A stretch of DNA of 64,000 bases from the NCBI RefSeq assembly GCF_002844195.1, contig NZ_PEND01000004.1, forward strand, positions 372,001 to 436,000, written 5' to 3'. Source of the stretch: Halegenticoccus soli (GTDB lineage Archaea > Halobacteriota > Halobacteria > Halobacteriales > Haloferacaceae). The notes beneath the pieces were generated by a model. The model saw nothing but the letters and a program-made list of their open reading frames with translations. It did no database searches and was not told the DNA's origin. The position numbers and the translations under genes are program-made. Of the stretch, positions 42,931-53,589 are shown one piece after another. Within the stretch, counting starts at the first letter, position 1. Every line of letters begins with the position of its first letter.

Positions 42931-43105
42931 GTTCCGTTCGTCCCCGGGCGGGTTTCGTTCGTTCCGACGCGAGTTCGACTCGCACACGGAACCCCGCTCG
43001 CCCTCGGGGGAGACGGCCGCTCCCGGCCGCGGCATCCGCGGTTCGGACGCCCGCCGTTTTCGGCCAACCTAAAAATTCAAGTTCCCGCTCGGATACCGGG
43101 AGGTA

Positions 43106-43822
43106 ATGAGCCACACTCTCGACCGCGAATCGCCCGCCGAATACACCTTCGACGACGTGAGCGTCGTCATGGGAACCTACGACGAGGAGGCGGCGATCGG
43201 GACCGTGTTGGACGATATCGAGCGGGCCACGGACGGCCGGGCCGAGGTCGTCTGCGTCGACGGATCCTCGGACCGGACGCCGGAGATCGCCCGGGGCCGC
43301 GGCGCGCGCGTCGTTCGCCAGCGCCCCAGGGGGTACGGCGTGGCCGTCCGCGCGGCGCTTTCGAACGCGAGTCGACCCGTGATCGTCACCACCGACTGCG
43401 ACGACACGTATCCGATGGACCGGCTCCCCGACTTCCTCGACGCGATCAACGACGGCTACGACGTGGTGAGCGGCGACCGCCTCTACTACGGCGCGGAGGC
43501 GATGCCGGCGCTCAACCGGCTCGGCAACCGCGCGTTCGCGGCGCTCGCCAGCGTCCTGACGGGTCGGCGCGTCCACGACACGACGACCGGCATGCGCGCC
43601 TACAGGCGCGAGGTGATCGAGCGGATCGAGTGGACGGAGAACACGGGACTGTCGGCCGAGCTGCTCATCCGGCCGATCGCCCGGGGGTACGCCGTCCGCG
43701 AGCTCCCCATCGACTACCGCGAGCGCGCGGGCGAGACGAAGCTCGACCCGATCTCCGGCGGCGCGGCCATCGCCAAGTCGATCGCGAAGGTCTGTCTCGA
43801 AGAGCGCGCCCGGAAGCGATAG
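43106..43822 (+). CDS. Family 2 glycosyltransferase
   Basis: 238 aa GT-A fold enzyme. SVVMGTYDEEAAIGTVL, VVCVDGSSDRTPEIA and TTDCDDTYPMD (DxD-like metal motif) are typical. No transmembrane helix at the end, so probably a soluble dolichyl-phosphate-glucose/mannose synthase-like or polyprenyl sugar transferase. The promoter is well seen: CCTAAAAATT (about 43067-43077) as TATA and GGGAGGT (43098-43104) as Shine-Dalgarno. Nearby GT39-like and RGP-like genes make surface glycosylation plausible. Confidence 0.85.
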   Translation: MSHTLDRESPAEYTFDDVSVVMGTYDEEAAIGTVLDDIERATDGRAEVVCVDGSSDRTPEIARGRGARVVRQRPRGYGVAVRAALSNASRPVIVTTDCDDTYPMDRLPDFLDAINDGYDVVSGDRLYYGAEAMPALNRLGNRAFAALASVLTGRRVHDTTTGMRAYRREVIERIEWTENTGLSAELLIRPIARGYAVRELPIDYRERAGETKLDPISGGAAIAKSIAKVCLEERARKR

Positions 43823-43847: not shown

Positions 43848-45473
43848 TCAGAGCGTCGCGTCCACGCGCTCGGCCGCCCGCAGCGCGAGCGCCGCGATCG
43901 TCAGCGTCGGGTTCATCGCGCCGCCCGTCACGAAGACGCTGCTGGAGGCGATCCAGAGGTTGTCCAGGTCGTGCGTCCGGAGCTCGGGGTCCACGACGCT
44001 CTCTTCGGGGTCGGTCCCCATCCGGGTCGTCCCCATGTGGTGGAAGGCCGGCCCCGTGTTCTCCGGGCCGACCGTCCAGGTGATCTCGACGCCCAGCTCG
44101 TTCAGAATCGCCCGCTGGATCTCGTTGGCGCGCTCGATGGTGCGCCTCGTCCGGCCGTCGATGCGCCAGCGGATCGCCGGGACCGGGTTGCCGCGGTCGT
44201 CGGTCCGGGACGGGTCGAGGGTGATCCTGTTTTCTGCCCGCGGGAGCTGGCCGACGAGCGCGCCCATCCCGATCTCGTTGCCGTACGCCTCGCGGAGCGA
44301 CGCGAGCAGGTCGTCGCCCCACTCGTCGGCGGAGAGCGCCATCTCGACCGGCGACGGGCCGGCGTAGTTCAGAAACTCCAGTTTGAGGGGGGCGAAGTCG
44401 GCGTCCGCGCCCGGGATGCCCGCGGTCGCCCTCCCGGGATCGTCGTAGAACTGGTGGCACTCGCTCGTGATGAACCCGACGTGGTTCTGCCGCGTCGGCT
44501 CGTCCAGGCGGCCGCCCATCCCGGCGAACAGGTGGTCCATGAAGTACCGGCCGACCAGGCCGCTCGAATTGGCGAGCCCGTCGGGGTGCTTCTCCGACTT
44601 CGAGAGGAGGAGCAGGCGAGGCGTCTCGACGCCGCCGCAGGCGACGACGAACCGCCTCGCCTCCTGTCTGTACGTCCTGCCGTCCGGCGTCGCGTAGACG
44701 GCCGCCTCGACCGTCTCGCCGGCCCGGTCGTGTTCGAGGCGCTGGACCGGCGCCCGGTCGACGACGCGCGCCCCCGCCTCCTCCGCCCTGGCGACGTGCA
44801 CCTCGGCGGTGTACTTCGCCCCCGACGGACAGACGGGCTTGCAGGTGCCGTACCCGACGCAGCCGCCCCTGCCGTCGTACGGCTCCGAGTTGCGCGCGTT
44901 CGGCACCGAGTGCGTGACCACGCCGAGTCGCCCGCACGCCTCCGCGAACAGCGAGTCGGCGTAGGAGGGGCGGAAGCCGGGCATCGGAAACGGCTCCTCG
45001 CGCGGCGGGGCGAAGGGGTTGTCGTCCGCGCCGGCGACGCCCAGTTCGGCCTCGGCCCGCGCGTAGTACGGCCGGAGGTCGCGGTAGCCGATGGGCCAGT
45101 CGTCCGCCACGCCGTCGCGGCTCCGGCGTTCGAAATCCGACTCGTGCAGGCGCATCACCATCCCCTGCCAGTGGAGCGTCGATCCGCCGACGCCCTTCAC
45201 GCGGGCGGCGTTCAGCGGGTAGCGCCGCTCCCCGGTCGACGTGAACGCGTCGCGCTCGCCGCCCATCTCCCAGACGGCCCCGCCGCCCGGGCGGATGCTC
45301 CGCTCCATCTGTTCGAGCCGCTCGTCGGGGTCGAACCGGCGGCCGGCCTCCAGAACCACCACGTCCCGGCCGCGTTCGGCGAGCGCGGCCGCGATCAGCG
45401 CCCCCGCGGGGCCGGAACCGACGACGCACACGTCGACGCGGTCCGACGGCCTCCGATCCGCTCCCGGATTCAT
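43848..45473 (-). CDS. GMC family FAD oxidoreductase (glucose/gluconate dehydrogenase-like catalytic subunit)
   Basis: 541 aa. FAD-binding loop VCVVGSGPAGALIAAALAE at about residues 15-33; the GMC segment GGSTLHWQGM, and C-terminal FHHMGTTRMGTDPEESVVD followed by SSVFVTGGAMNPTLTIAALALRAAE. A cysteine cluster (GGCVGYGTCKPVCPSGAKY) resembles that of membrane-bound gluconate and sorbitol dehydrogenase large subunits. Overlaps the subunit-3-like gene by 4 nt (ATGA). It likely oxidises a sugar or polyol and passes electrons outward, but a cytochrome subunit is missing nearby. Confidence 0.88.
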   Translation of the reverse strand: MNPGADRRPSDRVDVCVVGSGPAGALIAAALAERGRDVVVLEAGRRFDPDERLEQMERSIRPGGGAVWEMGGERDAFTSTGERRYPLNAARVKGVGGSTLHWQGMVMRLHESDFERRSRDGVADDWPIGYRDLRPYYARAEAELGVAGADDNPFAPPREEPFPMPGFRPSYADSLFAEACGRLGVVTHSVPNARNSEPYDGRGGCVGYGTCKPVCPSGAKYTAEVHVARAEEAGARVVDRAPVQRLEHDRAGETVEAAVYATPDGRTYRQEARRFVVACGGVETPRLLLLSKSEKHPDGLANSSGLVGRYFMDHLFAGMGGRLDEPTRQNHVGFITSECHQFYDDPGRATAGIPGADADFAPLKLEFLNYAGPSPVEMALSADEWGDDLLASLREAYGNEIGMGALVGQLPRAENRITLDPSRTDDRGNPVPAIRWRIDGRTRRTIERANEIQRAILNELGVEITWTVGPENTGPAFHHMGTTRMGTDPEESVVDPELRTHDLDNLWIASSSVFVTGGAMNPTLTIAALALRAAERVDATL

Positions 45474-46018
45474 CTCTCGGGTCCCCGCCTGTAGCTCTCG
45501 GTTCCGCCCGGGTACCCCTGCGGGTTCTCGATGCCGACGAGCCTCCCGCCGGCGGGCGACGCGTAGAAGGCGTAGAGGAGTTCGTTCACGAGGTAGTACC
45601 GCAGGCGCTCGGGGTCGAGCCCGTCCGGGTTCGGCTCGGCGGTGGCGACGCCGACCTCGCGGAGCAGGCCGTCCCTCGCGCCGCCGTCGAGCGCGGCGTA
45701 CCGCCCGCCGTACCAGCTCTCCGCGTACGAATCGAGCGTCGAGAGGGCGCTCTTCACCCCTTCGGCGTACGCCCGGCGGTCGCGGATCCGGCCGACGACG
45801 TACGTCTCGACGAACGCCGGGACGCCCGTCGCTTCGGAGGGGTAGAGGGCGGTCGCGACGGCGGCGAGCGTCTCGACCTCCCGGTCGTCGAGGGCGGCAC
45901 CGTCGCGGTTCCCGCCCTCCTCCGCGCGGAGTTCCTCCCAGGTGAGCGCCGCTCCGCCGCCGAGCACCACCCCGCCGGCCGCGAGCGCGGCCAGCGCGTC
46001 GCGTCGCGTCAGCTCCAT
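45470..46018 (-). CDS. Gluconate 2-dehydrogenase subunit 3-like protein (Tat-exported)
   Basis: 182 aa. Tat signal at the N-terminus (LTRRDALAALAAGGVVLGGGAAL), then an alpha-helical domain with TLAAVATALYPSEATGVPAF, which is the family signature, and the end SPAGGRLVGIENPQGYPGG. Subunit 3 is known to help export and stabilise the GMC catalytic subunit, which itself lacks a signal. First gene of a two-gene operon with its own operator-like dyad in front of it. Confidence 0.87.
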   Translation of the reverse strand: MELTRRDALAALAAGGVVLGGGAALTWEELRAEEGGNRDGAALDDREVETLAAVATALYPSEATGVPAFVETYVVGRIRDRRAYAEGVKSALSTLDSYAESWYGGRYAALDGGARDGLLREVGVATAEPNPDGLDPERLRYYLVNELLYAFYASPAGGRLVGIENPQGYPGGTESYRRGPER

Positions 46019-46028
46019 CGGAGCCGGA

Positions 46029-46042
46029 TTAGGCGAGCCTAA
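46029..46042 (-). promoter_or_regulatory. Iron-box-like dyad A upstream of the gluconate-dehydrogenase-like operon
   Basis: Arms TTAGGC and GCCTAA separated by 2 bp, i.e. TTAGG-N4-CCTAA. It lies 11 nt upstream of the start codon; a TATA-like CATAAGTTT (about 46041-46049) is next to it at about -27. A repressor here would block the initiation site. Confidence 0.65.
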
Positions 46043-46119
46043 ACTTATGAGTTGCCATGTTCCGACGGTTCGGGGGCGTTGGGATCCGCGCGCTCTCCGC
46101 CGGACTCTCGACGAATCCG

Positions 46120-48378
46120 TCACCCCGACGCCGATCCGCCGTCGGCCCGGGCGGAGGTCTCGACGGAGACGCCGTCGACGTAGTCGCCCCCGGGGCCGAC
46201 GTACGTCCCCTCCGTGCCGCAGTCGGTCGTCAGCGCGCAGACGCGGGTTTCCGGCGGCCAGATCGCCCGGACGCGATCGTCGCGGACGTCGACGGTGAGC
46301 TCCTGCCGGTAGGTCACCGTCCCCCCGGCACCGTCGACGAACGTCACGGCGAGATCGATCTCGCTCGCGCCGTCCGGCACCGCGACCGGGGGCGAGGGCG
46401 GTTCGTCGTTCTCGGCCGGGCCGCCGTCGCCGGCGAGCCCGTCCCCCGCGGCGAACGCGCGGTTCGTGACCCGCGCGCCCCCCGGGCCGACCGTCCAGTC
46501 GACCGTCATCGCGTCGCCGACGTCGTCGACCCGGTAGCGCGCGTAGCCCGCCGCCGTCTCGATCCGGACCGAGGCGGTCCGCGATCCCGCGGGCGCGCCG
46601 ACGGTCGTGGTCGCCTCGACGCGCTCGCCCCGGAGCACCGTCAGGCGCCGCAGTACCGGCTCGACCGGCTCGACCGCGCCCGTCCACTCGCCCCGGTAGG
46701 CGTACCGGTAGAGCGCGCGGTCCCCGACGGCGTCGACCGTCTTCACGTCGCGCTCCGGCCCGCGGTCCTGGGCGTATATCACCGGGCCGTCGAACCCGGG
46801 GTCGTTGCGGAGGTGCTGGAACGGGTGCGCGCTCCAGTTCCCGTACGGTGTCGGGACGAACACGAGCGCGCGGTCGAACTCGGTCCGCTCGACGGGCTCG
46901 TACGCCCTCGCGAAGTTCTCGGTTCGGAGGCGGTTTTCCGACGCCGGATCGTCCAGCGCCCGCTCCTCGGCGACGGCGACGACCGGCGCGGCGACGAGGA
47001 GCGCGACGAGCACCGCGGCCCGCGCGGCCGACGGGGAGAGGTGACGGCCCGCGGCGGCGCGCAGGCCCCGCACGAGCGTCACCGCCCCGGCGGCGGCGAA
47101 CGCCGACAGCGGGACGACGAGGTCGAAGTGGTAAAACGGCCCGAGAAGGTCGAAAAGCCCGTTCAGGAGGCCGTTGTGCGTCCCCCAGAAGAAGAAGTTG
47201 CCGACGACGACGGAGACGAAGAGGCCCGCTAGCGCGAGCGCCACCTCGTCGCCCGTCATGCCGGTCGGCGACGGGCGCGGGAGGCCGCCGCGGAGATCGG
47301 AGAGCAGTCCGCCGACGCCGAGCGCCGCGAGGAGGGTGCCGATCGGGGCGGCGACGGTCCACTCCGAGAGCAGCACCTCGACGACGCTGACGGTCGTCGC
47401 GAGCGCCAGCCCGGCCGTGTAGTCCACCTCGTACCCGAGGATCTCCCGCCGTCCGAGCCCCAGCCCGTCGTTCGGGGCGAACGCCTCGTAGGGGAACAGG
47501 AAGGGATCGCCGGTCACGAGCGCGTTGTAGCCGAGCGTCACGCCGACGAACGCGAACCCCGGGCCGGCGATGGCCGCGTACCGGCGGAGCGCCGGGCGGA
47601 GGTCGCCGATTCGCCGCGCCGCCGCGAGCGTCGCCGCCGCGTGCGCCGCGAACGGGAGCGCGAACAGGAGCGCGGTGTAGGGTCGCGAGAAGAACGCGAC
47701 GCCGATCGCCGTCCCGGCGAGCGCCGCGTCGCCGACGCGCCCCGTTCGGGCGGCCCGGACGTAGCAGACGGCGAACGCCAGGTTGAACAGCGTCGTCGGC
47801 GCGTACGCGAGAAACACCGACGACGTCATGAGAAACAGCGGCGACCCGGCGAGCGCGACGACGGCGACGACCCCCGTCCGGCGGTCGAACGCCGTCGCGG
47901 TTAGCGCGTACGCGAGGGCCGCGTTGCCCGCCGCGACGAGGCCGAGCGCGACCCTGTAGTCGCCGGCGAGCGCCCTCCCGAGCGCGAAGACGGCGGCCGC
48001 GACGGGCGTGTACTTGGGGTACAGCCGCAGCCCGCCGGAGGGGTCCGCGTCGGCGACGAAGAACCACGGCCGGACCGCGTCTCCGAGATCGCCGGGGGAG
48101 AGGAACAGCCGCCCGTCGAGCAGCATGGCGGCCTGGTTGAGGTAGACGGCCTCGTCGTCGTTGACCGAGTGATACGGGAAGAGATCGACGGCGAGGACGT
48201 ACACGAGCGCGCCGGTCGCGAGCGCGGCCGCCGCGGCGAGGAGCCGCTCCCGGTTCCCGGCGCGGACCGCCTCGGCCGCGCGCCGGCGCGCGGCGAGCGC
48301 GACTCGGCGCGCCAGTTGACGCGCGGCCCGGCGCACGCGACGTGTCAACCGACGCGCGGCTCGACGCACGCGTCGCAT
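46120..48378 (-). CDS. GT39-like multi-pass membrane protein (putative lipid-linked sugar transferase)
   Basis: 752 aa. Residues 1-35 are an Arg-rich cytoplasmic region with RRVRRAARRL repeated. About ten transmembrane helices follow. The first external loop has NDDEAVYLNQAAMLL, matching the acidic DE motif of PMT/ArnT-type (GT39/GT83) glycosyltransferases. The last about 280 residues are a soluble extracellular beta-rich domain. The gene begins at the stop codon of the ABC ATPase (1-nt overlap), so it belongs to the ferric importer operon. Substrate unknown; polyprenyl-linked sugar is the usual donor of the family. Confidence 0.75.
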   Translation of the reverse strand: MRRVRRAARRLTRRVRRAARQLARRVALAARRRAAEAVRAGNRERLLAAAAALATGALVYVLAVDLFPYHSVNDDEAVYLNQAAMLLDGRLFLSPGDLGDAVRPWFFVADADPSGGLRLYPKYTPVAAAVFALGRALAGDYRVALGLVAAGNAALAYALTATAFDRRTGVVAVVALAGSPLFLMTSSVFLAYAPTTLFNLAFAVCYVRAARTGRVGDAALAGTAIGVAFFSRPYTALLFALPFAAHAAATLAAARRIGDLRPALRRYAAIAGPGFAFVGVTLGYNALVTGDPFLFPYEAFAPNDGLGLGRREILGYEVDYTAGLALATTVSVVEVLLSEWTVAAPIGTLLAALGVGGLLSDLRGGLPRPSPTGMTGDEVALALAGLFVSVVVGNFFFWGTHNGLLNGLFDLLGPFYHFDLVVPLSAFAAAGAVTLVRGLRAAAGRHLSPSAARAAVLVALLVAAPVVAVAEERALDDPASENRLRTENFARAYEPVERTEFDRALVFVPTPYGNWSAHPFQHLRNDPGFDGPVIYAQDRGPERDVKTVDAVGDRALYRYAYRGEWTGAVEPVEPVLRRLTVLRGERVEATTTVGAPAGSRTASVRIETAAGYARYRVDDVGDAMTVDWTVGPGGARVTNRAFAAGDGLAGDGGPAENDEPPSPPVAVPDGASEIDLAVTFVDGAGGTVTYRQELTVDVRDDRVRAIWPPETRVCALTTDCGTEGTYVGPGGDYVDGVSVETSARADGGSASG

Positions 48379-49526
48379 CAGCCGTCGACGGTGCCGGCGC
48401 GTTCGGAGCCCCGGGGGAACCACGAGAGCTCGTGGTCGGCTTCGAGCCCCACTCGCACGCGCTCGTCGACGGCGATCCGGTCGTCGTGGTTGTGCATGCA
48501 GCCGATCCGCTCGCCCGTGTCGAGTTCGACCTCGTACAGGACGGTCGGCCCGAGGTAGCGCCGCGAGGCGACGGTTCCGTGGCCGGCCGCCTCCGTCGGG
48601 ACCGCCCGTACGTCGTCGGGGCGGACGAGCACCTCGACCGCGGACCCCTCGTACTCGGGCGCGAGACCGTGGATTCGCTCGCGGTCGATCGCGCCGATGC
48701 CGGTGTCGACCGCGTCAGCGCCGACCGTCCCCGAGAGGAAGCTCGCGTGGCCGAGGAAGCCGGCGACGAAGCGCGACTCGGGGTGCTGGAACACCCGTTC
48801 CGGTCGGCCGATCTGTTCGATCCGCCCGTCGTTGACCACGGCGACGCGGTCGCTGATCGACATGGCCTCCTCCTGGTCGTGCGTGACGGAGACGGCCGTC
48901 ACGCCCGCTCGCTTTATGATTCGGCGGACCTCCTCGCGCATCTCGACCCGGAGGTCGACGTCGAGGTTGGAGAAGGGCTCGTCGAGCAGCAGGATCTCCG
49001 GTTCGGGCGCGAGCGAGCGGGCGAGCGCCACGCGCTGCTGCTGGCCGCCCGAGAGTTCGCTCGGGTAGCGTTCGCCCCGCGTTTCGAGGTTCACGAGGTC
49101 GAGCAGTTCGTCGACGCGGCGCTCGCGGTCGGCGGCGTCCCGGCCCTTCAGCCCGAAGGCGACGTTCTCTCGGGCGGTCAGGTGGGGAAACAGCGCGAAC
49201 TCCTGGAAGACGACGCCGATTCCCCGCTTCTCGGGCGGGACGAATGCCTCCGCGCCGGAGACGACCTCGCCGTCCAACCGGACCTCGCCGCCGTCGGGGC
49301 GTTCGAGCCCCGCGATCAGCCGGAGCGTCGTCGTCTTCCCGCACCCCGAGGGACCGAGGAGCGTCAGAATCTCTCCCCTCTGAACCGAGAGCGAGAGGTC
49401 GCTTATGACCGTTTCCGCGCCGTACCGCTTCGACACGCCGGCGAGTTCGAGCACCGTCTCGCTCTCGCGGGCGTCGCCGCCCGGCGCGTCCGCGGCGTCT
49501 TCCGTCCGTAGCGTGCTATTTGACAT
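48378..49526 (-). CDS. ABC transporter ATP-binding protein (ferric iron/spermidine/sulfate type)
   Basis: 382 aa. Walker A GPSGCGKTT (58-66), Q-loop VFQEFALFPHLTA, signature LSGGQQQRVALARSL, Walker B EILLLDEPFSNLD, and H-loop VSVTHDQEEAMS. The C-terminal TOBE domain (about 290-375) is of the PotA/FbpC kind. It energises the permease encoded directly upstream, overlapping it by 11 nt. With a FutA-like binding protein upstream, the cargo is most likely Fe3+; thiamine or other anions are the alternatives. Confidence 0.9.
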   Translation of the reverse strand: MSNSTLRTEDAADAPGGDARESETVLELAGVSKRYGAETVISDLSLSVQRGEILTLLGPSGCGKTTTLRLIAGLERPDGGEVRLDGEVVSGAEAFVPPEKRGIGVVFQEFALFPHLTARENVAFGLKGRDAADRERRVDELLDLVNLETRGERYPSELSGGQQQRVALARSLAPEPEILLLDEPFSNLDVDLRVEMREEVRRIIKRAGVTAVSVTHDQEEAMSISDRVAVVNDGRIEQIGRPERVFQHPESRFVAGFLGHASFLSGTVGADAVDTGIGAIDRERIHGLAPEYEGSAVEVLVRPDDVRAVPTEAAGHGTVASRRYLGPTVLYEVELDTGERIGCMHNHDDRIAVDERVRVGLEADHELSWFPRGSERAGTVDG

Positions 49527-51129
49527 CGTATCCCTCCTGGGAGATGATGACGAGCATCGACAGCGCCGACACGCCGAGCAGGATGAGCGCCGGCACCGCC
49601 GCGTAGCCGAAGTACCCCTCGCCGTAGGCCGCCCAGATACGCGTGACGAGCGTGTCGAACCCCGTCGGCGCGAGGAGCAGCGTCGCGGGCAGCTCCTTCA
49701 TCGTCGTCAGGAACACGAGCGCCGCGCCGCCGAGCAGCCCTGGCGCGACGAGCGGCAGCGTCACCGCCCGGAACGCGCCGGCGGGCGTGCGCCCGAGCGT
49801 CCGCGCGGCCTCGGGCAGCGCGGGGTTGACCCGGAGGAAGGACGCCCGCATCGACCCGACCGCCTGCGGGAGAAAGCGCACCACGTACGCGAACACCAGG
49901 AGGTACAGCGTCTGGTACAGCGGCGCGGCGTACGACGTGCCGAGGTAGACGAGCGCGAGGCCGATCACCACCCCCGGGACCGCGTAGCCGACGTAGGTCG
50001 CCCGCTCGAACGCCTGCGCGAGGCGCGAACGGGACCGCGCCGCCAGGTAGGCGACGGGGAGGCCGGCGGCGGTGGCCACGAGGGCCGCCGCCGCGGAGAC
50101 GCCGACCGAGTTGAAGACGTGCGCGAGCTCGAACCCGAGCGTCGCGCCGCCGACGCCGCTCGTCCCCCGGAGGAGCCACGTCCCGAGGATGCCGAGCGGC
50201 ACGGCGAGCGCCAGCGCCGGGACGATCGCACAGAAGAGCAGCGCCGGGGCGGTCCACCGGCCGAGCCGGACCACGTCGCCGTAGCGTCCGCCGGATTCGA
50301 CGTACAGCGGCCCGTCCCCGCGGATGCGCGATTCGAGCGCGAGGATCGCCAGCGTGACGGCGACGAGCTGGAGCGACAGCAGCGCCGCGAGGTCGCGGCC
50401 GAAAGTGGTGAACTCGACGTAGATGACCCGCGTGAAGGCGTCGAAGCGCATGATCGCGGGCGTACCGAAGTCCGAGAGCGCGTACAGCGCGACGAGCAGC
50501 GAGCCTGCGGCGACCGCCGGCCGGATCTGCGGGACGGTCACGCGCCTGAACGCCTCCCACCGCGTGTGCCGCAGCGTCCGCGCGGCGTCGACCAGCCGGG
50601 TGTCGAGCGACTTGAGCGCGGCGCGGGTCGTGATGTACACGTACGGGTACGTGTACAGCGTGAGCACGAGGGTCGCGCCGCCGAAGCCGTAGATGCGCGG
50701 GAGCGATTCGACGCCGAGCGGCGCGAGCGCCCGCTGGAACGCCCCTCTCGGGCCGAACGCGGAGACGAAGGCGAACGCGCCGATGTAGCTCGGGACGACG
50801 AGCGGCAGCGACACCGCGACAGTCCAGAAGCGCCGGAGGGGGAGGTCGGTTCGGACGGTGAGGTACGCGAGCGGCACGCCGAGCAGTATCGACGCGCCCG
50901 TGACCGCCGCGACGAGCGCCGCGCTGTTCGCGAACACTTCGACCGTCGCGGGGCGGGTGAGAAGCGCGACCGCCTCGGCCGGCCCGACGGCGACGGCCGT
51001 CCGGACGAGCCACACGAGCGGGAGTAGCACGGCGGCGGCGACGGCGGCGCTCGCCACCGTGAGCGGGAACGCCGCCTCCCCGCCACCTCGGGCGTTTCGA
51101 GCGGTCGCCGTCTCTCGCTCGGGCGTCAT
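49516..51129 (-). CDS. ABC transporter permease (ferric iron FbpB/SfuB type, two-domain)
   Basis: 537 aa with about twelve transmembrane helices in two homologous halves. Each half has an EAA-like loop: LVDAARTLRHTRWEAFRRV in the first and LPEAARTLGRTPAGAFRAVTLPL in the second, as expected for fused permeases of this class. It lies 13 nt after the binding-protein gene and overlaps the ATPase gene. Middle gene of the importer operon. Confidence 0.9.
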   Translation of the reverse strand: MTPERETATARNARGGGEAAFPLTVASAAVAAAVLLPLVWLVRTAVAVGPAEAVALLTRPATVEVFANSAALVAAVTGASILLGVPLAYLTVRTDLPLRRFWTVAVSLPLVVPSYIGAFAFVSAFGPRGAFQRALAPLGVESLPRIYGFGGATLVLTLYTYPYVYITTRAALKSLDTRLVDAARTLRHTRWEAFRRVTVPQIRPAVAAGSLLVALYALSDFGTPAIMRFDAFTRVIYVEFTTFGRDLAALLSLQLVAVTLAILALESRIRGDGPLYVESGGRYGDVVRLGRWTAPALLFCAIVPALALAVPLGILGTWLLRGTSGVGGATLGFELAHVFNSVGVSAAAALVATAAGLPVAYLAARSRSRLAQAFERATYVGYAVPGVVIGLALVYLGTSYAAPLYQTLYLLVFAYVVRFLPQAVGSMRASFLRVNPALPEAARTLGRTPAGAFRAVTLPLVAPGLLGGAALVFLTTMKELPATLLLAPTGFDTLVTRIWAAYGEGYFGYAAVPALILLGVSALSMLVIISQEGYDVK

Positions 51130-51142
51130 CGTCCGGTCCCGC

Positions 51143-52312
51143 TCACAGCACGCCGACCTCCCGCATCAGCTCGATCGTCCCCTCGAAGTCCGACAGCTGG
51201 GTGAGGTCGAGCCCCTTCGGCGGGTTGAGTTCGTCGATGGTCGGGAGGTCTCCGATCGGCTCGACGCCGGGGATGAGCGGGTACTCGAACGTCTCGCGGG
51301 CGAAGTAGTCCTGCGCCTCGGCCGAGAGGAGGTGGCGGACGAAGTTCGACGCCAGCGTTCGGTTCTCCGCGGTCTTCAGCACGCAGGCGCCGGCGACGTT
51401 GAAGATCGCCCCCGCGTCGCCCTCCGTGAACGCCGTGTCGATCGGCGCCTCGCCGCCGCGGCCCGCCAGCACCCGCTGGATGTAGTAGTGGTTCGCGAAC
51501 CCGGCGCCGATCTCGCCGTCTGCGACCGCCTGCGAGACGAGGAACTCGTCGCCGTACTCCCGGACGCCGAGGTCCATCATCCCGCGGAGCCACCGCTTCG
51601 TTTTCGCGTCGCCTTCGAGCACGCGCATCGCCGTGACGAACGACTGGAAGGAGCTGTACGTCGGCGCCCACCCGACGTTGTCCGCGAACTCGTTCGCGTC
51701 GGGGAACGCCATGATGTCGGTCGGGACGTCGGACTTCGAGAACTGCTTCGTGTTGTAGGGGATCGTCCGCGCCCGTCCCGACGTCCCGATCCACTGGCCG
51801 TCGGGGTCGCGGAACTCCTCGCGGACGAGTCCGAGCACGTTCTTCGGGAGACTCACCGTCCGTCCGTCGTTCTTCAGTTCCCCCATCGAACCCGCGTCGA
51901 CGGTGAAGAACACGTCCGCGGGGCTGTTGTCGCCCTCCGTCTCGATCTGGTTGACGAGCTCCGCGGCGGAGTTGTACCGGACCTTGATCGTGAGATCGGC
52001 GTAGAGGTCCTGAATGAACGCGATCAGTTCGCCGACGAGCGCCTCGCCGCGGGCCGAGTAAACGGTGAGCTCGCCGCTCATGTTCGGCATGTCCGCCATC
52101 GACGTGCCGCCGGTGATCTCCCGGTCGCCGAACGGGGACCGGCCGGAACCGATCTGGCCGACCGCCTTCCGGCCGCCCGGCGCTTTCTGTTCGTCCTGCG
52201 TCTGTCCGAGAAGTCCGTTACAGCCGGCGAGCGCCGCGGCTCCGACGGTCGCACCCGCCCCGAGAAGCCGCCGTCGGGTGACCCTGCGACGCGAAGACTC
52301 GTCCGTCGTCAT
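51143..52312 (-). CDS. Ferric-type ABC transporter substrate-binding lipoprotein
   Basis: 389 aa. Tat signal with RR and lipobox (TRRRLLGAGATVGAAALAGC, Cys31). Then LTVYSARGEALVGELIAFIQ and NSPADVFFTVDAGSMGEL, which match bacterial iron(III) binding proteins (FbpA/FutA type); VSQAVADGEIGAGFANHYYIQ contains the tyrosine pair that binds iron in many members (Tyr-Tyr). Linked to a perfect operator-like dyad 8 nt upstream, fitting iron control. Molybdate or thiamine transport is less likely. Confidence 0.9.
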   Translation of the reverse strand: MTTDESSRRRVTRRRLLGAGATVGAAALAGCNGLLGQTQDEQKAPGGRKAVGQIGSGRSPFGDREITGGTSMADMPNMSGELTVYSARGEALVGELIAFIQDLYADLTIKVRYNSAAELVNQIETEGDNSPADVFFTVDAGSMGELKNDGRTVSLPKNVLGLVREEFRDPDGQWIGTSGRARTIPYNTKQFSKSDVPTDIMAFPDANEFADNVGWAPTYSSFQSFVTAMRVLEGDAKTKRWLRGMMDLGVREYGDEFLVSQAVADGEIGAGFANHYYIQRVLAGRGGEAPIDTAFTEGDAGAIFNVAGACVLKTAENRTLASNFVRHLLSAEAQDYFARETFEYPLIPGVEPIGDLPTIDELNPPKGLDLTQLSDFEGTIELMREVGVL

Positions 52313-52319
52313 ATAACCT

Positions 52320-52335
52320 TTTAGGCTTGCCTAAA
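52320..52335 (-). promoter_or_regulatory. Iron-box-like dyad B upstream of the ferric importer operon
   Basis: Perfect 7-bp arms TTTAGGC and GCCTAAA with a 2-bp centre, lying 8 nt upstream of the start codon and just downstream of the TATA box at 52338-52345. A protein bound there would cover the transcription start of a leaderless mRNA. Confidence 0.75.
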
Positions 52336-52337
52336 CA

Positions 52338-52394: not shown

Positions 52395-53555
52395 TCAGTC
52401 GTCGGCCGTCACGGGCGGCGTCCGCGCGGTCGCGAGGCGGTCGAGGCAGTCGAGCCAGTCCCGCATGTGTTCGCCGACGTAGTTGAAGAACGCGCCGTTG
52501 CCGTACGCCGACCAGTCGCCCTCGGCGAGGGCGTCGGCCATCGCGCCGAACGCCTCGGCGTACGAATCGGCCCCGTCCCCGACGCCGTCTACGACCTCCC
52601 AGAGGTGCTCGTTCAGTTCGAGCCCCGGCACCTCGTTGTTCAGGTCGTCGAAGGTGGACCGCGGGGCCTTGTTGTGCTCACAGAGCGGGTAGCCGTTCAC
52701 GATGTCCTTGCCCAGGAGGTCCGCCGCGCGCTTGAGGAACACGCCGCTCCAGATGTCGTCGAACCGGCCGACGCTCCACTCGTTGTCGTCCATCGGAAGC
52801 TGGTAAAACGCGGGGATCACTTCGCGCTTGAAGGCCAGGTTCATCGAACAAACCGTGAGGTAGTGCCCCCGCTCGGCGACGAAGTTCCCGGCGTAGTCGT
52901 CCGCGGCGGTCCGCGTCCGCGCCTGCCCCCGAAGGTCGCCGTCCGTCAGGATGCGCACGGCGTCGAGATCCGGCACGTTCGTCCACAGCCCCTGGGAGGC
53001 GATGACGTCGTCGACGACCGTCGTCGCCGTCTCGACCGCCTCGTCCATCGCCGAGTACGGGTAGCCGCGGGGGTACAGCCCGTGTTCGTCCGCGTTCTGG
53101 TAGAGCACGTTGACCCACCGCTCGTCGGATCGAACCGACTCGATCGGCCCCTCGTGGGCGAGGTTCTCGAAGTGCGTCCCGAAGAAGTCGAAGTCCGGGT
53201 GCGGCAGCGTGTCGTCGTCGATGAAAAACCCGTAGTCGAACCGCTCGTCCGCCCACATGTAGAGGAGGCCGAAGCTCGTCTCGGCGTGGCTCGCCGCCGG
53301 GATCAGGTGGGCGTACTCTTCGACCCCGTGGTCGGCGAACCACTCCCGCCTGCGGGTCCCGTCGAACACGTCGCCCGAGACGCCCTCCTCGCGGAGCATC
53401 GCGCGCATCTCGTCCGCCTCGCAGAAGTCCTCCGTGACGAGCAGGACATGGAGCCGGTCGAGGTCGAACCCGTGCTCGCGGGCGTTCTCGAAGTACGCCC
53501 GCATGCAGTCGAATTCGCGGATCGTGGGGACGATTACGCACGTGTCTGCGGCCAT
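52395..53555 (-). CDS. Reversibly glycosylated polypeptide (RGP/UDP-arabinopyranose mutase) family protein
   Basis: 386 aa. CVIVPTIREFDCM at the start, YGFFIDDDTLPHPD (DDD metal/nucleotide motif), ERGHYLTVCSMNLAFKREVIPAF and VGRFDDIWSG all match plant RGP/UAM proteins, including the order of motifs. In plants they interconvert UDP-arabinopyranose and furanose and become autoglycosylated; archaeal copies are often named alpha-1,4-glucan-protein synthase without proof. Cytoplasmic, no membrane helix. It has its own promoter whose TATA box overlaps an iron-box-like dyad. Confidence 0.82.
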   Translation of the reverse strand: MAADTCVIVPTIREFDCMRAYFENAREHGFDLDRLHVLLVTEDFCEADEMRAMLREEGVSGDVFDGTRRREWFADHGVEEYAHLIPAASHAETSFGLLYMWADERFDYGFFIDDDTLPHPDFDFFGTHFENLAHEGPIESVRSDERWVNVLYQNADEHGLYPRGYPYSAMDEAVETATTVVDDVIASQGLWTNVPDLDAVRILTDGDLRGQARTRTAADDYAGNFVAERGHYLTVCSMNLAFKREVIPAFYQLPMDDNEWSVGRFDDIWSGVFLKRAADLLGKDIVNGYPLCEHNKAPRSTFDDLNNEVPGLELNEHLWEVVDGVGDGADSYAEAFGAMADALAEGDWSAYGNGAFFNYVGEHMRDWLDCLDRLATARTPPVTADD

Positions 53556-53569
53556 CGGTTAGCACCGAT

Positions 53570-53589
53570 TTTTTAGGAGCCCCTAAAAA
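53570..53589 (-). promoter_or_regulatory. Iron-box-like dyad C over the RGP-family gene promoter
   Basis: 8-bp arms TTTTTAGG and CCTAAAAA separated by 4 bp (AGCC), so the same TTAGG-N4-CCTAA core as dyads A and B. Its outer T-rich arm is also the best TATA candidate, about 30 nt upstream of the ATG at 53555. Confidence 0.65.

Follow-up and report, generated by a model that had tools for sequence, protein, structure and literature searches.

The 64-kb stretch of Halegenticoccus soli DNA analysed here (the window) carries an RGP gene (52395–53555, minus strand) whose product we propose, with a probability of about one half, to act first in a lipid-linked glycosylation module that is induced by iron starvation, with the adjacent ferric-iron-binding lipoprotein (SBP) as candidate acceptor. 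A preliminary description had treated the RGP gene singly; from sequence comparisons, the unit is a conserved module of several genes. The regulatory and co-functional parts of this reading are held with high confidence, lipid-linked sugar transfer by the module is moderately favoured, and the SBP as recipient of the sugar is a tentative proposal. According to PMC9937993, characterised GT75 members were limited, as of 2023, to those of plants and two bacterial proteins, and we found no description of the module in the open-access PMC literature. The module would give the archaeal GT75 branch a predicted pathway, partners, an inducer and a candidate acceptor; if the reading is correct, it links metal homeostasis to archaeal surface glycosylation and suggests a role for DUF7846, an unassigned domain.

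The RGP gene starts at an ATG at 53555 and encodes 386 residues. Its product matches the Pfam RGP profile PF03214 at E 1e-16 and 61.5 bits (curated cut-off 23.8), gave no match in NCBIfam, and has MtdL as its best solved relative by sequence (E 5e-24). A structure model built from 48 aligned sequences (pLDDT 81.6, pTM 0.86; model residue n is protein residue n+1) superimposes on MtdL (7yua) with Z 35.3, aligning 356 of 385 model residues at 24% identity, and on rice UAM2 with Z 26.3. The next best score, to general GT-A enzymes, is 14.9; because Z falls so far, the protein is a whole GT75 protein rather than a GT-A domain alone, and the fold comparison accounts for the GT-A domain, the GT75-specific core and the C-terminal helical region. 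The motifs FFIDDDTLP, SMNLAFKRE and GRFDDIWSG occur in order, as had been described, and the kinship with RGP claimed from them is borne out by the model and by the catalytic residues discussed below. On profile and modelled fold, the gene is a haloarchaeal branch of GT75. The relatives that carry it are Halobacteria, the closest named homologue being that of Halomarina halobia (85%). In two genomes (G043 and G045) RGP is present twice, the additional copy also being of haloarchaeal type (63–64% identical to that of the window). One haloarchaeal genome has, beside its usual copy, a canonical plant-like RGP (L134, G132:C2:1525556-1526527) that scores 452 bits to PF03214 and carries CRCFGF and RGYPFS motifs.

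Active-site residues were mapped through the MtdL alignment onto 104 haloarchaeal sequences (103 distinct homologues plus that of the window), with residue roles taken from excerpts of PMC9937993. D113–D115, R163, D196, S237, R264, D267 and H294 are present in 104/104 and are the equivalents of the DDD motif, Arg159, D195, S228, R257, D260 and H287 of MtdL, which with Hyg20 represents the bacterial GT75 GDP-L-fucose/L-galactose pyranose mutases. The set thus includes the DDD motif (D113–115), the autoglycosylated Arg (R163, counterpart of the covalent Arg159 of MtdL), the metal (Mn)-binding His (H294) and the catalytic Asp (D267) that mark GT75/RGP proteins. In contrast, five residues that are equally invariant differ from MtdL: H90 (D87 in MtdL), T93 (R90), M238 (Q229), K296 (R289) and R299 (H292). 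Likeness to plant RGP/UAM lies in the GT75 fold shared with rice UAM2 and in the RGYP motif and, we presume, also in PTIR and in the Met and Lys that stand in place of MtdL Q229 and R289.

The sugar and base pocket is another matter. At the positions of MtdL S86 and D87, all 104 haloarchaeal proteins have Ser89 and His90; MtdL itself has Ser and Asp, whereas in active plant enzymes the pair is Asp and Ser (PMC9937993); this plant-type pair is absent from the haloarchaeal proteins. The base-selecting positions look mixed, Ser89 being MtdL-like and Pro10 standing where T13P mimics plants, a pairing judged by eye on the PTI motif, which the printed alignment does not cover. Because this pocket differs from that of plant UAM, the UDP-arabinopyranose-mutase-like identity given in the preliminary description holds for the GT75 fold but is not supported for the substrate, UDP-arabinose; the substrate cannot be read from these residues. 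That description had also named loss of the active-site Asp or Arg positions as the outcome that would count against it, and the alignment gives this in part: MtdL D87 is missing, but active plant enzymes carry Ser there, and the covalent Arg163 and the other Asp residues are kept in 104/104. Mutase activity is not assured, since His90 and Thr93 replace MtdL residues that bind sugar and ribose. A protein that glycosylates itself or senses sugar, makes no furanose and merely hands the sugar to GT2 or GT-C could also retain Arg163 throughout; it is further suggested by the invariant His90 and Thr93 in place of MtdL D87 and R90, given that D87N and D87S abolish MtdL activity (PMC9937993, in excerpt). 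We consider it unlikely in view of the universal retention of D113–115, D196, S237, R264, D267 and H294 and of the Ser found at position 87 in active plant enzymes.

The second line of evidence for an iron-controlled module is the promoter. An iron-box dyad, the putative operator, lies at 53571–53588 across the probable RGP TATA element, with the core TTAGGAGCCCCTAA at 53573–53586 and the extended form TTTTAGG AGCC CCTAAAA at 53571–53588. It conforms to the TTAGGN4CCTAA palindrome, and the operator of Halegenticoccus soli is slightly off-consensus inside the dyad, with A..C where C..G is commonest. Allowing one mismatch, the core occurs four times in the window compared with a mean of 0.12 in shuffles; the exact core occurs at 14 sites in the 4.6-Mb genome versus 1 for the reversed control pattern, and at 192 sites versus 0 in the loci of 80 named relatives (1.018 Mb), which were chosen for carrying the RGP gene. 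Among 103 distinct haloarchaeal loci (109 less 6 duplicates), the dyad upstream of RGP is exact in 83, has 1 mismatch in 16, 2 mismatches in 3 and 4 mismatches in 1, so that 99/103 lie within one mismatch. The exceptions are L074 and L106 (2 mismatches each), L094 (2 mismatches, displaced) and L089 (4 mismatches). Two of these, L089 and L094, are metagenome-assembled and keep the RGP gene with no good dyad in front; they are natural controls for loss of iron control.

The position of the dyad accords with the earlier proposal that it overlaps a TATA box. Of the 16 one-mismatch dyads shown, 15 have TTTGG as their left half, which is therefore more T-rich. Alignment of 99 RGP promoters reveals three invariant T residues at dyad positions -1 to +1, preceded by 6–12 nt by a weakly conserved BRE-like stretch (0.6–0.95 bits at best), and we infer from these patterns that the T-rich left half is the TATA element, with a BRE nearby. 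The dyad begins a median of 28 nt, and mostly 25 to 35 nt, before the RGP ATG, a spacing that suits the T-rich left half as the TATA box of a leaderless transcript; such transcripts are habitual in haloarchaea. As a rare TTAGG palindrome ahead of iron-uptake genes, the element has the properties of a DtxR-family iron box. By these comparisons the RGP dyad is a real iron-box-type element, as first proposed, and binding by a DtxR-family repressor is putative. Metal control of the gene, also proposed earlier, is supported by the conservation of the box across species, and the attached plant-UAM substrate is not.

Three further boxes are found in the window. The second (52319–52336, exact core 52321–52334) precedes the iron-binding lipoprotein gene, the third (46027–46044, exact core 46029–46042) precedes a Gluconate_2-dh3/GMC pair, and the fourth (43057–43074, one mismatch) precedes a GT2 gene. 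Using mechanically called starts, a dyad with no more than one mismatch was found upstream of 61/69 RGP, 68/73 SBP and 24/28 GT2 genes, compared with 0/70 GT-C, 0/34 ATPase, 2/44 permease and 31/376 other ORFs; the dyad is exact upstream of 68/73 SBP homologues.

For the genome-wide sites, flanking ORFs were inspected and 7 proteins were run against Pfam. Directly behind boxes we found four Peripla_BP_2-type periplasmic-binding proteins and one class-III aminotransferase. A ferritin-like fragment below the Pfam cut-off lies roughly 0.8 kb from its site; a short stretch at L007 had no Pfam match, the full ORF there being Gluconate_2-dh3-like; and for several sites no gene could be assigned. Judged by its members, this is mainly an iron-uptake regulon. 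The genome contains 17 matches to DtxR-family repressors, of which three are strong (60–71 bits) and are candidate repressors. The palindrome and its iron-uptake-type targets resemble those of DtxR/IdeR-type boxes and the haloarchaeal FerR/Idr regulon, but here boxes also precede glycosylation genes, some of which may already be listed by Leyn and Rodionov in 2015. Sugar modification of a siderophore, or of its export, might account for both the iron control and the proximity of the SBP, and the Peripla_BP_2 proteins and class-III aminotransferase behind boxes elsewhere, which we take to have a siderophore role, point in that direction. This is improbable, for the SBP beside RGP belongs to the type that binds bare ferric iron (best PDB match 7w3w) and GT-C enzymes act outside the membrane on lipid-linked sugars. 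In each of two regions (G000:C1:145873/145909, L002/L003; C10:85806/85842, L014/L015), two exact boxes start exactly 36 bp from one another, with ORFs on either side, possibly one box per divergent promoter.

The composition of the module emerges from the gene neighbourhood. Following the RGP gene in the window are genes for the SBP (51143–52312, minus strand), an iron-type ABC permease (49516–51129, minus strand; BPD_transp_1), an ABC ATPase (48378–49526, minus strand; ABC_tran, TOBE_2) and a GT-C membrane glycosyltransferase with PMT_2 and DUF7846 domains (46120–48423, minus strand; start uncertain, GTG 48423 or ATG 48378). Among the loci of 80 relatives, 36 have homologues of all four downstream of RGP, the ATPase match of L107 and L123 lying beyond GT-C; 31 have SBP and GT-C, 8 have the permease as well as these two, and 2 have GT-C by itself, namely L074 and L106, where RGP adjoins GT-C with no SBP. 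The remaining three are L080 and L086, with 170 and 1930 bases of downstream sequence, and L092, whose GT-C gene lies beyond the 6-kb flank on the same contig (G007:C11). The permease (46/80 loci) and ATPase (37/80) are not in every locus, and from these counts both are dispensable, leaving RGP, SBP and GT-C as the core.

GT2 belongs with this core by co-occurrence. In 60 relatives, RGP, the PMT_2/DUF7846 GT-C and GT2 (presence called at E of at most 1e-50) occupy identical sets of 45 genomes. GT-C lies within 15 kb of RGP in 45/45 of them; GT2 does so in 29/45 and stands apart in 16/45. A wider sample took in 392 genomes of the phylum. PF03214 and PF25230 (DUF7846) were present together in 64 of these, and neither was found alone; all 64 are listed under the same order or family, and each has the two on a single contig no more than 6.7 kb apart. 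Haloferax volcanii has both. These presence sets reflect shared ancestry and are not independent draws, so that chance values calculated for their identity exaggerate its significance. Congeners nevertheless differ in whether they carry the module (G000/G001, G008/G034, G011/G187, G339/G040). A GalE-type epimerase gene, considered as a fourth member, lies upstream of RGP in 17/80 loci but is found in 57/60 genomes, and not in G000 at the cut-off, so it is not module-specific.

The GT2 gene (43106–43822, plus strand; PF00535) encodes a dolichol-P-mannose-synthase/ArnC-like protein with 5mlz as its best PDB match, followed by ArnC. Homologues were found in the flanks of 28/80 loci, a number limited by flank length, and 27 of these lie behind the GT-C gene on the opposite strand. 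When the 220 nt upstream of the matched start were searched in 30 of the 45 GT2 genes found, an iron box was present in 30/30 (16 exact, 14 with one mismatch). Where GT2 is far from RGP, the box is kept in 10/10 loci examined, which indicates that it goes with the GT2 gene and not with the neighbourhood. These results bear on another reading of the RGP gene, as encoding an ordinary UDP-arabinopyranose mutase with an incidental iron box inherited from neighbouring uptake genes. Fold and motif similarity, and the possession of its own box by the neighbouring SBP gene, would agree with it; we regard it as highly improbable, as RGP has a separately conserved box of its own, usually 25 to 35 nt ahead of the ATG, GT2 keeps its box at a distance, and the RGP pocket residues differ from those of UAM.

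For the GT-C protein, a profile search against PDB sequences gave no match, and its relatives were found by fold. All of the listed matches to the model (pLDDT 83.9) above Z 10 are GT-C-fold proteins, and nearly all are polyprenol-linked transferases; the PIG-U chains of GPI transamidase, also among them, are not lipid-linked sugar transferases. The best scores were to oligosaccharyltransferase (24.3), archaeal AglB (24.0), ArnT (22.9) and PMT (22.8), with AftB (17.4), AftA (15.9) and EmbA-EmbB (15.1) below; the DUF7846 beta domain, from about model residue 580, is barely covered by the comparison. The GT-C membrane fold is accompanied by an Asp-Glu pair in what is predicted to be the first outer loop, and the N, D and E of the NxDE motif are invariant. 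From the model, the fold alone does not tell either the sugar or the acceptor. GT2 and GT-C together resemble ArnC-ArnT, in which a GT2 makes Und-P-Ara4N and a PMT_2 GT-C transfers it: the module GT2 matches ArnC by sequence and the GT-C model matches ArnT by fold. The module differs in being archaeal and iron-boxed, in adding a GT75 enzyme and in having DUF7846. Similarly, MtdL and Hyg20 are bacterial, whereas the RGP protein is archaeal, iron-boxed and encoded beside GT2, GT-C and SBP genes. In mycobacteria, a polyprenol-linked furanose donor, decaprenyl-phosphoryl-arabinofuranose, is used by GT-C enzymes, and the module GT-C fold matches AftA/AftB/Emb at Z 12 to 17. The mycobacterial furanose arises on the lipid carrier, whereas in the module it would come from a putative NDP-sugar mutase.

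The candidate acceptor is the SBP. Whole-domain homology (best PDB 7w3w, E 5e-64) and a conserved NHYY Tyr-Tyr pair, presumably the iron ligands, mark it from sequence as an FbpA-type ferric-iron-binding protein. A GSG motif lies in the linker between the lipid Cys and the iron-binding domain, and the column of its Ser56 is one of those with at least 97% conservation over 71 aligned proteins. A script recognised the lipobox in 69 of 73 module SBPs, and in 68/69 of these a GSG lies no more than 70 aa from the lipid Cys; the SBP of L078 has GYG at the aligned place and GSG elsewhere. A stricter regular expression matched 51/73 module SBPs and 0/685 other ORFs. SBP homologues occur in 11/15 genomes that lack the module; of the 9 compared, one has the motif (L238, whose congener G339 carries the module), one has a chance GSG (L241) and seven have none. 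Module SBPs share as little as 40% pairwise identity (median 54%), which argues that the motif is not mere closeness, and yet the module-less SBPs are more distant still (34–47% to the SBP of the window), so that clade confounds the contrast. Most of the 9 module-less SBPs have an exact iron dyad upstream, and iron control of the SBP is thus older or wider than the module.

Decoration of a general surface glycan under iron limitation, either the S-layer N-glycan or an exopolysaccharide, is a possible alternative to the SBP as the target, though not one we favour. By fold, oligosaccharyltransferases are no further from the GT-C model than ArnT and PMT are, and L074 and L106 keep RGP and GT-C with no adjacent SBP; against this, the SBP gene adjoins RGP in 45/45 module genomes and, in the SBPs sampled, its linker motif goes with the module. 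The same two loci combine absence of the SBP with weakened RGP dyads, which agrees with the module reading, though in two cases only. According to that reading, a DtxR-family repressor would occupy the dyad in plentiful iron and block TBP/TFB; as iron falls, the dyads would be freed and the GT75, GT2, SBP and GT-C genes switched on. The GT75 enzyme would then isomerise an NDP-sugar from pyranose to furanose through a covalent Arg163-sugar adduct with Mn2+, GT2 would load the product onto dolichyl phosphate, and outside the membrane GT-C would pass it on to an acceptor, for which the neighbouring SBP, perhaps through the Ser of its GSG motif, is the likeliest candidate; glycosylation there could stabilise, tether or tune the SBP. 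We offer the step order and acceptor as hypotheses. In its most specific form, with an unusual sugar, probably a furanose, passing from the GT75 mutase through GT2 and the DUF7846 GT-C to the GSG linker as an iron-receptor sugar switch, the scheme is speculative and doubtful in its entirety.

Two other sets of neighbours deserve mention. A UPF0104/LPG_synthase_TM flippase-like gene, mapped approximately 1.1–1.2 kb upstream of RGP and ending just ahead of it, occurs in 12/80 loci (L050, L051, L056 and others) and has its own iron box in 10/12; it is possibly a flippase for a lipid-linked sugar. Excerpts of a proteome study of Haloferax under iron starvation (PMC11349517) report increases of 11.6-fold for HVO_1859 (UPF0104) and 12.7-fold for HVO_0655 (GalE family), and the text of its section 3.3 names no RGP among the proteins changed >10-fold. 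Finally, the same cluster of the window includes, at 43848–46044, a pair preceded by the exact third box: a Gluconate_2-dh3 small subunit-like protein (45470–46018, minus strand; PF13618, 36.6 bits) and a GMC oxidoreductase (43848–45473, minus strand; PF05199, PF00732), with homologues of the latter in the flanks of 20/80 loci.
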